Source of the DNA: Acidobacteriota bacterium | GTDB lineage: Bacteria > Acidobacteriota > Terriglobia > Bryobacterales > Bryobacteraceae | Assembly: GCA_025350695.1 (NCBI GenBank) | Contig: JANXXI010000343.1 | Location: forward strand, 1-35,664 | DNA length: 35,664 nt | Direction of reading: 5' to 3' | Part shown: positions 6,875 to 12,801 of the stretch, one piece after another | Position numbering within the stretch: the stretch's first letter is position 1 | Layout of the letters: every line of letters starts with the position of its first letter | Program-made: the position numbers and the translations under genes | Notes under the pieces: model-generated | Told to the model about the DNA's origin: nothing | The model's input: only the letters and a program-made list of their open reading frames with translations | Databases searched by the model: none

Positions 6875-6929
6875 ATCGGCGGTTGGGATGGTTCCGTGAG
6901 GTGAAAATTGGATAGTTTGATTCGACTAA

Positions 6930-6971
6930 AACGCTGCAAGCGCGCAGGTAAGCCGGCGCGCTTGCAGCGTT
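6930..6971 (-). terminator. 16-bp perfect hairpin, likely terminator of the LEA-HhH gene
   Basis: Bases 6930-6945 and 6956-6971 are exact inverted repeats (AACGCTGCAAGCGCGC and its complement) with a 10-base loop. Read on the minus strand, it lies 16 bases after the stop codon of the gene ending at 6988 and is followed by TTTAGTC, a short T tract. This fits an intrinsic terminator, although the T tract is poor. It would also insulate the HDOD gene, whose start is 56 bases further on. Confidence 0.6.
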
Positions 6972-6987
6972 CAAACGTCGTTGTTGA

Positions 6988-7656
6988 CTATTGTTTGGCG
7001 ATGATCCTTTCTTTAACCTTTTCGTACTCAGCGTCGGTGAGGATTCCCTTCGAGTTGAGCTGGTTTTTCATCTTATACGGCCGTCCTTGGATGATCTTCT
7101 GCGCAACAGCATCGTTGACCCCCATTTCACGTTTGAGGTCCGCGGCACTGGCGCGATTAACGTCGAGTTGCGTTGTGCCCTTTATCGCGGCGCCTGATTT
7201 TTCGATTCCGTTGCCGGTGGCTCCGACCGTCTTCTTTGCGGCATTTTCGGTGACGCTTGCCGTCTTCTTGGCAGCATCCTTGGTGACTTCCGCAGTCTTC
7301 TTGCCTGCGTCCTTGGTTACTTCCGCAGCCTTCTTCACACCGGTTTCGGTCGCGCTGGCGGCCTTTTTTACTCCGGATTCGGTGGCGCTCGCTGCTTTCT
7401 TCGCCCCAGATTCAGTTGCGCTTGCAGCCTTCTTCACTCCGGATTCGGTAGCCTTGGCGGCGTCCTTTGCGACCTCGGCGGTTTTCTTACCGACTTCCTT
7501 TGCGCCCTCCGCAGTCTTCGTGGCGGCTTTATCGACGGTTTTACCGACTTTGCTTAAACCCTTTTCCGCCTTGCCCTCCTCGGGCTTCTTTGCTTCTTGC
7601 GCCAGGGTGGTTCCGGCAGCCAAAACAATACTTAAGAAAATGTTTAGATGTTTCAT
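6988..7656 (-). CDS. Secreted LEA-like 11-residue repeat protein with C-terminal HhH domain
   Basis: A 222-residue exported protein with three parts. Residues 1-20 (MKHLNIFLSIVLAAGTTLAQ) are a signal peptide. Residues 49-147 hold nine 11-residue repeats with consensus ESGVKKAASAT or KDAxKKTAEVT, the pattern of group 3 LEA proteins, which form amphipathic helices on drying. Residues 163-222 (LDVNRASAADLKREMGV, then QKIIQGRPYKMKNQL) match the ComEA/T2SS-K type helix-hairpin-helix. The ATG at 7656 has GAGAGG three bases upstream; the frame stays open 43 codons further back, but without a signal peptide at its start. LEA-like repeats suggest desiccation or membrane protection and the HhH suggests DNA or protein binding; the combined role is unknown. 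Confidence 0.85.
   Translation of the reverse strand: MKHLNIFLSIVLAAGTTLAQEAKKPEEGKAEKGLSKVGKTVDKAATKTAEGAKEVGKKTAEVAKDAAKATESGVKKAASATESGAKKAASATESGVKKAASATETGVKKAAEVTKDAGKKTAEVTKDAAKKTASVTENAAKKTVGATGNGIEKSGAAIKGTTQLDVNRASAADLKREMGVNDAVAQKIIQGRPYKMKNQLNSKGILTDAEYEKVKERIIAKQ
7216..7512 (-). repeat. Nine 33-base tandem repeats encoding 11-residue LEA-like units
   Basis: This in-gene repeat encodes residues 49-147 of the LEA-HhH protein. The units are diverged at codon level but keep an exact 33-base period with no indels. Units three to five (ESGVKKAASAT, ESGAKKAASAT, ESGVKKAASAT) are almost identical, which points to recent duplication within the array. On the plus strand the same bases give a long false reading frame rich in Phe, Ala and Leu. 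Confidence 0.8.
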
Positions 7657-7865
7657 AGACCTCTCATATCTTATACCAAGGGATGAATGGAAGCGAAGCG
7701 CCCCGATTCGATTTTTTCGGGCCCGGATCCTCAGGCTCAACCGATTGGATGTTTGCTTTTGGGAAAAGGTTCCTCCCCAATTCACGGGATCATTGCATAC
7801 TTAAAGGCATGAGATCCCTCGCAGAGGCCCAGAAACAGATTTCCAAAGCGGAAGACCGCTCCCTT

Positions 7866-10227: not shown

Positions 10228-12231
10228 CTACTTAGCTTCGTCCAACGCAAAGGCCATGATGCTGTCATCCGTCACCGGGTTGTTAAAGAAACCACCGCCG
10301 GTAGAGGCGATCACAACGTACTGTCGGCCATCCCTGCCCTGGTAAGTCATCGGCGTCGCTTGGGCCGCGCCGCCCAGTTTGGTAACCCAAAGTTCCTTGC
10401 CAGTCTTAGCATCAAATGCACGAAAGCGGGCGTCGTCGGTCGCGCCCACAAACACCAGGCCACCGGCAGTTGCAATGGTCCCTCCGTTGCCCGGTCGACC
10501 AGTATTCTGTTTACCGGCGGGCAAACTATCAGTCACTCCGAGCGCCACGCGCCACGCGAATTCGCCAGTATTCACATTCACCGCCGTCAATTGGCCCCAT
10601 GGCGGCTGCTGGCAAGGCAGTTGCTGCGGGGAACCATCTTTGCCCGGAATGCTGAACCGCCCGCCGCCGATGCCCTCATACGGTCCATCCGGATGAACGC
10701 GATTCCCCATACCTCGTCCAATCGCCCTGCCCTCCATCGACGCCCGATCTTTCAATCCCGTAATTTGTCCCAAGTCGTTGGAGTTCACAAACAGGTAACC
10801 CAATTGCGGATTGAACGACACGCCACCCCAATTGACTCCACCGTGGTTGCCGGGAAAGCGAACACCGAGCCGGTTATAGCTGACAGGGAGATACGGCCCG
10901 CCCAATTGCAGATCCTTCATCAACGCCTTGCAGGCTGTTTCCAACTCCGGCGTGACAGTGGCCACATCGCCCGCACTCATCGACATTCGCGAAAGCGGCG
11001 GCGGCTTCAACGGAAACGGCTGTGTCTTGGCGGTCTTTTCAAGAGGCACTTCGCTTTGTGGCACGGGACGCTCCTCCACGCCAAATATCGGTTTTCCGGT
11101 CACGCGATCGAAGAGGAATAGCATTCCAGACTTGTTGTTCGCCGCCACAGCGGGGATGGTCCGGCCACCACGCTTCACATCAATCAACACCGGTGCGCCC
11201 GCTAGGTCGGCGTCCCAAATGTCGTGATGGATCAGTTGGAAGTGCCACAAGTATTTCCCCGTGTTGGCATCAGCGGCCACGAGGCTTGTGCTGAAAAGAT
11301 TGTCGCCTTCGCGGTCGCCGCCGTATTGATCCACTGAAGGCGCGCCGAATGGCATGTAGACAATTCCGCGTTCCGCATCCACAGTAAGAAATCCCCATAC
11401 ATTCACGCCCGAACGCTGCTTCCAGCTATCGCCGGCCCACGTATCGTTATACTTTTCCCCGGCCTGCGGAATGGAATGAAAGGTCCAAGCCAACTTGCCA
11501 GTATGCATGTTCCAAGCGCGTACATCGCCAGCCGGACCCAATGGCGGATTCTCCTGCGTGGTGCCACCGGTGATCACCAAATTCTTGTAAACAATCGGCG
11601 GGGAACTTAAACCATTGCGACCAGGAAGTCCGCGCATGATTTCTGGCGTATTCAGACTAACGATGCCGTTGTCCCCAAAGCTCGCGTTGGGTTTGCCGGT
11701 ACGGGCGTCGAGCGAAAACAGCCGGCCATCGCCAGTGCCGAATACTACTTGTGGCGCCGTGCGTCCTTCGCCGGGCCAGTATTCCAGACCGCGTGAAGAA
11801 GCGCCTCCACCGCCGGGTAGAGCGAATGACCACACCTCTTTTCCTGATGTTGCATCAATCGCCACAACGCGGCCGTACGGCGTCGTCAGATACATGGTCC
11901 CGTTGATGACCAGTGGCGTTACCGTGCTGGGACTCATGCCACCCGCGCCGCGCGTCCTGGCAAAGGGAACTTCATCGCCAACGGCCCCACCGGTATTCGC
12001 GGACGGTGGGCGAACCGGGACGGGTGCAGCCGTCCCGGCGGGCTTCATATGGTAAACCCACGCCACTTTCAAACGATTCACGTTCGACGGATTCAGTTCC
12101 GTCAATGGAGAGAACCGCATGCCACCCGGATCGTGCCCATAGGTCGGCCATTCCTTGGACGACGTTTGCGGCAAGGCCATCGGGATCGTGACAAAACAAA
12201 TCGTTGTGGATAAAAGCAGAACGTGCTTCAT
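10228..12231 (-). CDS. PQQ-dependent dehydrogenase, soluble periplasmic beta-propeller
   Basis: A 667-residue secreted quinoprotein of the glucose/alcohol dehydrogenase propeller family. It starts with a signal peptide (MKHVLLLSTTICFVTIPMALPQ), then WPTYGHDPGGMRFSPLTELN, the standard first blade. Further blades show VVAIDATSGKEVWSF, LFSLDARTGKPNASF, VDAERGIVYMPFGAPS and, near the end, FRAFDAKTGKELWVTKL with tryptophan-docking repeats. It lacks the five membrane helices of E. coli Gcd, so it must pass electrons to a separate carrier. The divergently encoded cytochrome c at 12346 is the obvious candidate, with only 114 bp between the two start codons. No heme motif is in the protein itself. Substrate (sugar or alcohol) is not readable. 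Confidence 0.93.
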   Translation of the reverse strand: MKHVLLLSTTICFVTIPMALPQTSSKEWPTYGHDPGGMRFSPLTELNPSNVNRLKVAWVYHMKPAGTAAPVPVRPPSANTGGAVGDEVPFARTRGAGGMSPSTVTPLVINGTMYLTTPYGRVVAIDATSGKEVWSFALPGGGGASSRGLEYWPGEGRTAPQVVFGTGDGRLFSLDARTGKPNASFGDNGIVSLNTPEIMRGLPGRNGLSSPPIVYKNLVITGGTTQENPPLGPAGDVRAWNMHTGKLAWTFHSIPQAGEKYNDTWAGDSWKQRSGVNVWGFLTVDAERGIVYMPFGAPSVDQYGGDREGDNLFSTSLVAADANTGKYLWHFQLIHHDIWDADLAGAPVLIDVKRGGRTIPAVAANNKSGMLFLFDRVTGKPIFGVEERPVPQSEVPLEKTAKTQPFPLKPPPLSRMSMSAGDVATVTPELETACKALMKDLQLGGPYLPVSYNRLGVRFPGNHGGVNWGGVSFNPQLGYLFVNSNDLGQITGLKDRASMEGRAIGRGMGNRVHPDGPYEGIGGGRFSIPGKDGSPQQLPCQQPPWGQLTAVNVNTGEFAWRVALGVTDSLPAGKQNTGRPGNGGTIATAGGLVFVGATDDARFRAFDAKTGKELWVTKLGGAAQATPMTYQGRDGRQYVVIASTGGGFFNNPVTDDSIMAFALDEAK

Positions 12232-12345
12232 GTGTGCAGCGTCATTATGAATCTATTCGGAAGGCGCCGTCAACATACGACGCCGAAACAGCATTCGATA
12301 ATGGACGCATTGCAATGCCCGCGGATTCGGTGGCAAGCTAGAGTC

Positions 12346-12801
12346 ATGCGAGCGCTCATACTTTCGATCCTGATGGTTAGCTTCACGGCAGTTCTTCTGA
12401 AGGCGGAAGACGACGGCCTGCCAGCGGGGAAGGAGAAAGAGACGTTCCTTAAGATGTGCTCCAACTGCCATGCCATGGCGCGCGTGACGAAGGCTAGATT
12501 CTCGAAGAAATTTTGGTCGTCAGTGGTGGACGATATGGTTTCGCGCGGTGCGGAGGGCACCGAAGAGGAAGCCGAACTTGTCATCAACTATCTGTCGCGC
12601 CATTTTGGCAAGCCGGTCAACGTGAATACGGCCACAGCGAAGGAAATTCAGGAAGGCCTGTCGCTCAAGGCCGCCGAGTCGGAGTTGCTGGTGAAGCATC
12701 GCACTGACAATGGGGCATTCAAGGTTTTTGAGGATCTACTGAAAATTCCTGGCCTGAATGCGAAGCTGCTGGATGAGCAGAAGAAAAATATTCAGTTTTG
12801 A
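12346..12801 (+). CDS. Exported cytochrome c fused to a ComEA-like helix-hairpin-helix
   Basis: A 151-residue exported protein. Residues 1-20 are a signal peptide (MRALILSILMVSFTAVLLKA). A short c-type cytochrome domain follows, with heme site CSNCH, a putative distal Met in DDMVSRGAEG, and VINYLSRHFGKP as its last helix. The C-terminal 60 residues (VNVNTATAKEIQEGLSL, then FKVFEDLLKIPGLNAKLL) are a ComEA/DUF655-type HhH. The start at 12346 gives the signal peptide at residue 1; the frame is open further upstream but crosses the PQQ gene start. Electron acceptance from the divergent PQQ dehydrogenase is inferred from position. The HhH may mediate docking and not DNA binding. Confidence 0.87.
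   Translation: MRALILSILMVSFTAVLLKAEDDGLPAGKEKETFLKMCSNCHAMARVTKARFSKKFWSSVVDDMVSRGAEGTEEEAELVINYLSRHFGKPVNVNTATAKEIQEGLSLKAAESELLVKHRTDNGAFKVFEDLLKIPGLNAKLLDEQKKNIQF

Follow-up and report, generated by a model that had tools for sequence, protein, structure and literature searches.

A long amphipathic 11-residue-repeat linker on a widespread, putatively exported helix-hairpin-helix (HhH) protein

The window is the whole stretch of DNA that was analysed (35,664 nucleotides). The host genome, that of a soil-type bacterium, has a completeness of 100 and a contamination of 4.8. A gene on the minus strand encodes a putative signal peptide, an array of 11-residue units and a C-terminal HhH domain. 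The features are listed below, generally with their basis in brackets.

7656..6988, minus strand: whole gene, 222 aa; ATG at 7656, stop at 6988-6990.
7600..7656, minus strand: putative signal peptide, type I-like, residues 1-19 (read by eye).
7513..7545, minus strand: degenerate first unit, residues 38-48 (unit scoring).
7216..7512, minus strand: nine core 11-residue units, residues 49-147, basic 11/3 amphipathic helix (autocorrelation, hydrophobic moment, unit scoring).
7183..7215, minus strand: degenerate last unit, residues 148-158, GNGIEKSGAAI (unit scoring).
7003..7173, minus strand: HHH_3/ComEA-fold domain, residues 162-218, with the altered hairpin GVNDAVA (Pfam, structure comparison).
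6929..6972, minus strand: strong stem-loop directly 3' of the gene (-43.2 kcal/mol, z -7.5).

The signal peptide named in the original prediction was recognised by eye, as a putative one, in the first 19 residues (K/H, hydrophobic core, TLA before Q20); the AF2 model places a helix at residues 6-18, inside this segment. The window protein has no lipobox, since no Cys is present in residues 1-19. The stem-loop at 6929-6972, a short version of which was also listed by a separate signal scan, is a probable transcription terminator with a short T run. The promoter scan found 0 promoters.

Synonymous and non-synonymous changes were compared with L003, a relative of the same genus. The linker has pS 0.71 and pN 0.18, the head pS 0.93 and pN 0.06; synonymous sites are saturated or nearly so and non-synonymous change is much lower. 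As pN lies far under pS, the minus-strand frame is a real gene, and the same pattern supports it over a long antisense ORF. The latter (6908-7804, plus strand) is a 298-codon open frame and apparently a by-product of repeat composition. L003 shows a single gap, of 22 residues (two units), relative to the window protein. The 222-aa HhH protein is real and conserved.

The 11-residue units span residues 38-158, in a register chosen by eye. For each of the nine units of residues 49-147, no more than 32 of 5000 random 11-mers with an identical composition score as high; the counts are 200 of 5000 for unit 38-48 and 296 of 5000 for unit 148-158. The "nine uninterrupted repeats" of the original prediction are exact, because nine units, all in one register, are strong and both outer units are degenerate. 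The lag-11 autocorrelation of residues 34-162 has a z of 13.1, and 0 of 20,000 shuffles score as high. A 33-bp periodicity is visible in the DNA of the array. The window linker is rich in K, A, T and E and devoid of aromatics; the net charge of residues 21-162 is +12, long linkers in general having +7 to +12. Several other long forms have TGxGLEKAGE or a similar sequence at the place of the degenerate last unit.

In 10 of 10 long linkers and in 11 of 11 repeat-only proteins (described below), the peak of the hydrophobic moment lies at 98-99 degrees, as expected for an 11/3 helix. In each of these 10 linkers and 11 proteins, the moment at 98.2 degrees is higher than in any of 500 shuffles, and the helix propensity expected of the repeats was thus found. 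Period and amphipathicity are retained where unit sequences differ. The 11-residue period is clear in nine of ten long proteins, L006 being weak (z 2.2), and also occurs in the short linkers of L029 (z 4.2) and of L151, L156 and L184 (z 4.7-5.7). In the AF2 model (pTM 0.35), the long helices have a pLDDT of 56-80. By its geometry, the array belongs with the 11/3 amphipathic helices of the synuclein/perilipin/LEA kind.

The membership of LEA group 3 that had been proposed for the repeats did not hold in the profile check. PF02987 (LEA_4) was not listed at E <= 10, HMMER filters dropping most matches above E about 0.1, for the window protein, for the eight long-form proteins of group A1 (window included; L014 and L097 left out) or for 11 repeat-only proteins. 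The positive control, nine copies of a sequence that was taken to be the group-3 consensus, matched PF02987 with an E of 0.0063 (16.8 bits, below the cut-off of 51.1); unlike this control, the window array alone gave no PF02987 match. An LEA_4 profile search of 61 genomes gave 0 matches, and control genomes were also without match, so that it is uninformative on absence. The best repeat-region Pfam match of the long forms is Synuclein (PF01387), weak and found in two of eight (best E 0.0016); it is also found, again weakly, in three of 11 repeat-only proteins (best E 0.022), and the Pfam scan gave no Synuclein match for the window protein. The lowest E among the repeat-only proteins is that of the antifreeze beta-roll LbR_Ice_bind (two of 11, best E 0.0058, weak), which has no match in the window protein. 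Histone H1-like (E 0.051) and curli (E 0.0039) matches were both far under cut-off and were judged compositional. LEA group 3 proteins have the same 11/3 helix geometry; this common geometry leaves room for a function of the window repeats on drying.

Two published systems bear on such repeats. BilRI is described as an outer-membrane protein with eleven LEA-like 11-mers, encoded near competence genes, the deletion of which lowers transformation; the terms HhH and ComEA are absent from the main text of that paper (PMC8096337). Given this association of LEA-like 11-mers with transformation, the idea behind the original prediction is not baseless. The 11-mers of perilipin 4 are described as a 3-11 helix of low hydrophobicity with a Thr/Val apolar face and almost no aromatics, and alpha-synuclein is named beside perilipin 4 for this helix type (PMC5889406).

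The HHH_3 match of residues 162-218 has an E of 1.2e-8 and 35.3 bits against a cut-off of 27; the HhH region is not unrelated sequence. The AF2 model has a pLDDT of 90-97 in residues 161-220. The best chains of the structural aligner, for which middling Z values are common with helical models, are those of ComEA: 2duy (Z 9.7, rmsd 2.1, 64 aligned) and 8dss_B (Z 9.5, rmsd 1.6, 61 aligned). They are followed by Tex (7.6), a T2SS pseudopilin (6.4) and PsbU (4.6-6.3 over eight chains). Foldseek gave no match at E <= 0.001, the best being 2duy (0.061). The family profile, compared with the PDB, matched an endonuclease-family protein with two HhH stretches (1.9e-14), 2duy (2.4e-12), ComEA 8dss (4.5e-9) and PsbU (about 7e-6). 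PsbU serves a protein complex, not DNA, and is another exported use of the fold. Its model PF06514 gives the window protein 15.7 bits, under the cut-off of 24.5.

The key DNA contact of ComEA is reported to be K63 in V. cholerae and K164 in B. subtilis, and G60A is reported as tolerated, G60V and G60E as non-transformable (PMC3879209, PMC9747964). When places are assigned by their distance from the second G, the hairpin GVNDAVA of the window protein has Asn at the G60 place, Ala at the K62 place and Val at the K63 place. The second HhH1 glycine is kept in 143 of 145 distinct proteins, Asn being found in the window protein and its same-genus relative; the window genus is therefore an outlier even within its own family. 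The K63 place is basic in 3 of the 145, and the K62 or K63 place in 8. The second hairpin of the window protein is GILTDAEY versus GIGEKTLE in the ComEA of G. stearothermophilus, and the second GIG is also replaced in the family consensus. For the window protein, neither of the ComEA NCBIfam models TIGR01259 and TIGR00426 was listed at E <= 10. At E <= 0.01, TIGR01259 (comE) matches all 24 scanned short relatives (best 5.2e-10) and TIGR00426 matches 18 of the 24; L012, a short relative, has 28.9 of 152.35 bits and 19.7 of 53.1 bits, far under both cut-offs. The ComEA-type HhH of the original prediction thus stands as a domain and as a fold, but the lysine of DNA contact, the second glycine and the second GIG are gone. 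The head has the fold of ComEA, with a ComEA function only putative, and DNA binding loses its main sequence support. The head has a net charge of +4, and the protein as a whole is strongly basic, so that it might bind DNA or LPS unspecifically. According to PMC9747964, about 110 residues separate anchor and head in Gram-positive ComEA and the Gram-negative protein is a stand-alone head; Pasteurella ComE1 is reported to bind fibronectin as well as DNA (PMC2601033).

HHH_3 matches are found at six places of the same genome: this gene, three cytochrome-c-type proteins, a paralogue on contig C80 and a 771-codon frame taken as a putative Tex. The first five of these, which were read, include no GxGxKK ComEA. 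A ComEC-type Competence domain is present in the genome. One of the cytochrome-c-type genes lies in the window (12223-12801, plus strand); it encodes a putatively exported cytochrome-c-like protein (CxxCH) with a C-terminal HHH_3 without GxG and adjoins a PQQ dehydrogenase gene (10228-12231, minus strand). The other two, also putatively exported and with the HHH_3 at the C-terminal end, are L196 and L200. In the C80 paralogue (L002), the HhH is followed by a C-terminal segment of the KGLVWLNEESKVFHREGDRWYGRTKKGKYLTEAEA type; a similar one is found in L202.

The core of the family is an exported HhH protein of ~100 residues (export read by eye), found in Acidobacteriota, Nitrospira, Bradyrhizobium and others. 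The family motif is DxNxAS..LPGIGDAYA.KII.GRPY..K.EL..K.I.P.ATYDKIKD.IIAKQ. The alignment of 42 proteins (window first) has 12 invariant columns; DxNxA, RPY, K, L, Y and A are conserved. Among 150 genomes of the bacterial family, a search with the window protein gave matches in 77 and the profile of short relatives gave matches in 84, the weakest of which may be other HhH proteins. The 91 small loci that were read are L001-L031 and L052-L111 (G047:C29 and G110:C6, for example, were left out); 79 encode the HhH protein and 12 do not. The linker, measured from residue 20 to the HhH, is bimodal: 12-44 residues in 69 of the 79 and 79-159 in the other ten. The ten long proteins are L001 (window), L003-L008, L010, L014 and L097; L014 and L097 carry a different HhH subfamily. 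The window genus has a linker of about 120 residues and a conserved head of about 60.

A peptide-pattern scan of named genomes gave 113 relatives, the best 80 of which were kept. The titles of these best 80 of 113 include Acidobacteria, Nitrospira, Rokubacteria, Bradyrhizobium, Verrucomicrobia and others, and a long 11-mer linker is found in seven of them (L112-L117, L120). Across the phylum, 69 of 396 genomes matched at E <= 1e-15, in a sample that holds few genomes of the window's family; among those 69 (matched ranges and nine loci read), no window-type array was found other than the window's own. In the HhH tree (60 columns), the long state needs five changes, at least three of which are forced by starred branches; gain and loss are not separable in it and its bootstrap is not fully settled. 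The window protein and its sister share a long branch, which attaches to the short L009 protein (96/89).

Proteins with a signal-peptide-like start and basic 11-mers only, without HhH, are found in the same bacterial family (L100-L109, L111); these 11 were read, those of G115, G136, G082, G144, G099 and G106 being left out. A match of the repeat module elsewhere in the genome (E <= 1e-5) is found in 0 of 8 genomes with a canonical long form versus 44 of 142 others; these are raw counts, and no exclusion is claimed from them for a "Rosetta stone" fusion of two genes. Two of the 44 (G071, G110) owe their match to a long gene (L097, L014). At E <= 1e-15 the module is found in 17 of 142 genomes, always away from an HhH gene, and 13 of these genomes also have an HhH match. 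When the linkers were reversed and scored against the repeat-only profile, four of ten did better than their real counterparts or fell short of them by no more than 1.5 bits. The profile similarity of repeat-only and long-form linkers is therefore largely due to composition and period, and these scores do not establish common descent of the repeat modules.

A lipoprotein form with a stretch of 41-72 residues between anchor and HhH is found in other families of the class. The best 13 of 30 loci were read (L290-L302). A lipobox pattern is present in 12 of these best 13. The moment of 12 of them peaks at 98-103.5 degrees and clears the 95% level of the shuffles, in several cases narrowly, in a scan that gave real linkers more angles than shuffles and so favours the real ones; L300 shows neither. 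LEA_4 was listed for neither of two scanned proteins of this form, one of which matches YtxH (5.6e-5, below cut-off). The other, L288, just passes the PsbU model PF06514 (24.7 versus 24.5 bits). The arrangement of envelope anchor, helix-type stretch and HhH head thus recurs with a different anchor.

The neighbours of the window gene are of tldD/pmbA-type, HDOD and hydrolase; among 20 loci compared, their order is kept only in the same-genus L032. In L033, L035, L036 and L038, which belong to two genera, the long-form gene is directly preceded upstream by a gene of ECF sigma type together with two other ORFs; the window locus has no such group. In L036, the one locus scanned, Sigma70_r2 matches at 1.6e-15 and the two other ORFs have no Pfam match. 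This suggests envelope-stress control in the ECF clade. Among 80 named loci, a dehydrogenase-like ORF lies just upstream in 20 and several others are found in 6-16 (by eye); the sets of neighbours differ between Acidobacteriaceae-titled and Bradyrhizobium-titled records (by eye). No neighbour common to all clades was found and no partner emerged from the neighbourhoods. The 14 neighbour clusters that recur most, inspected by eye, showed no recognisable competence gene.

Several readings of the array can be weighed. An exported desiccation protectant, in which the 11-mers would become helical on drying, like those of LEA group 3, and shield the envelope while the HhH holds the place, would fit the 11-residue period, the K/A/T/E-rich composition without aromatics, the 11/3 amphipathic helix of the window linker, the repeat-only proteins with signal-peptide-like starts of the same bacterial family and the precedent of BilRI as an exported bacterial LEA-like 11-mer protein (PMC8096337). 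It is nevertheless unlikely: none of 19 proteins had LEA_4 listed at E <= 10, the positive control did match, and most sampled family members lack the repeats. That the array is a near-neutral, slippage-prone spacer, the 33-bp units of which expand and contract with only the HhH head mattering, is about equally unlikely. The 33-bp tandem structure, the one gap of exactly two units in the same-genus relative and the short linkers that suffice in most sampled relatives (12-44 residues) agree with it; the linker pN of 0.18, low against a saturated pS of 0.71, the period and amphipathicity kept despite differing unit sequences, the long linkers of several lineages and the repeat-only proteins without head do not.

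A ComEA-like DNA receptor would bind periplasmic DNA by the head, and the basic helix would add affinity or drive oligomerisation or condensation, like the extra domain of Gram-positive ComEA. The ComEA chains 2duy and 8dss as best structural matches, the TIGR01259 and TIGR00426 matches of the short relatives, the ComEC-type Competence domain of the genome, the net charges of linker (+12) and head (+4) and the lower transformation on BilRI deletion (PMC8096337) point to such a receptor. It is made improbable by the A and V at the equivalents of K62 and K63, the N at that of G60, the loss of the second GIG, the absence of both ComEA models from the matches of the window protein at E <= 10, the scores of L012 (the sole short relative with shown scores) far under both cut-offs and the 14 printed neighbour clusters in which no competence gene was recognised by eye.

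The reading preferred here, with a probability of about 0.42, is that the protein, a long-linker member of a widespread family of small exported HhH proteins, serves as a helical tether which binds a surface and bears a head for docking a protein. After putative export, the 11-mer stretch would be largely disordered in solution. On contact with an anionic membrane or another envelope surface, it would fold into a long amphipathic helix, like alpha-synuclein and perilipin 4 on lipid, and the surface-bound helix would hold the HhH head at the envelope. The head would dock a protein partner, like PsbU, rather than DNA, like ComEA; any advantage on drying would be incidental to the tendency of this stretch to form a helix. 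This tether is favoured by linker lengths that are bimodal while the head stays conserved, by the five changes of linker state on the HhH tree, by the hydrophobic moments of long linkers and repeat-only proteins, by the Synuclein matches among the relatives, by the rarity of a basic K63 place (3 of 145), by the parallel design of the lipoprotein form with the PsbU match of L288, by the ECF sigma group of four long-form loci and by the confident head and long helices of the AF2 model. Against it stand the neighbourhoods, from which no family-wide neighbour or partner emerged, the window protein's lack of a Synuclein match, the weakness of the Synuclein and LbR_Ice_bind matches, the strongly basic character of the whole protein, the scores of the reversed linkers and the 11-residue period of some short linkers. 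A wider proposal is more doubtful: Acidobacteriota might have arrived more than once at one design, with a ComEA-fold head that is exported and carried by a long amphipathic helix. Such a device would insert itself (window type, 11-mers) or be anchored by lipid (lipoprotein type). This would be a new class of envelope tether, with a DNA-uptake fold as docking module and a synuclein-like helix as membrane sensor.

What is new here is the long amphipathic linker on a widespread exported HhH family (export by eye). No description of the combination of HhH and 11-mers was found in a literature search of titles and abstract beginnings, and LEA together with helix-hairpin-helix was found in plant context only, subscription journals being little covered in both cases. 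The same kind of search found no function for the conserved exported HhH protein itself (84 of 150 family genomes, several phyla). Judged from its sequence, the window protein is an elongated form of a putative envelope protein that is widespread but little known, with a desiccation role unproven and DNA binding not likely. The tempting label "LEA plus DNA binder" is thereby corrected: neither the "dry-state protectant" nor the protein "tethered to extracellular DNA" of the original prediction found support in this analysis. If the stalk binds membranes, a synuclein-like 11-mer helix would have been built onto a bacterial periplasmic domain.

The window protein can be compared with four known systems. 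It shares with ComEA the HHH_3 domain and the fold, the C-terminal position of the head after an export or anchor segment and, with the Gram-positive protein, a long stretch before the head; it differs in lacking the DNA-binding lysine, the second HhH1 glycine and the second GIG, and the NCBIfam ComEA models were not listed for it. With PsbU, it has in common a small HhH of the same fold, a second hairpin without GIG and a short PY loop, but it lies under the PF06514 cut-off and has no photosystem link. The likeness to LEA group 3 lies in the 11-residue period, the K/A/E/T-rich composition without aromatics and the amphipathic helix of the linker; the window units differ in having KK in place of the K..E pattern of the presumed consensus, the repeats are fused to an HhH and LEA_4 is not listed. 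Alpha-synuclein and perilipin 4 differ from the window protein, which is bacterial and putatively exported and in the case of which the Synuclein model is weakly reached, by relatives only; what is shared with them is weakly hydrophobic 11-mers with a Thr and Val apolar face and almost no aromatics.
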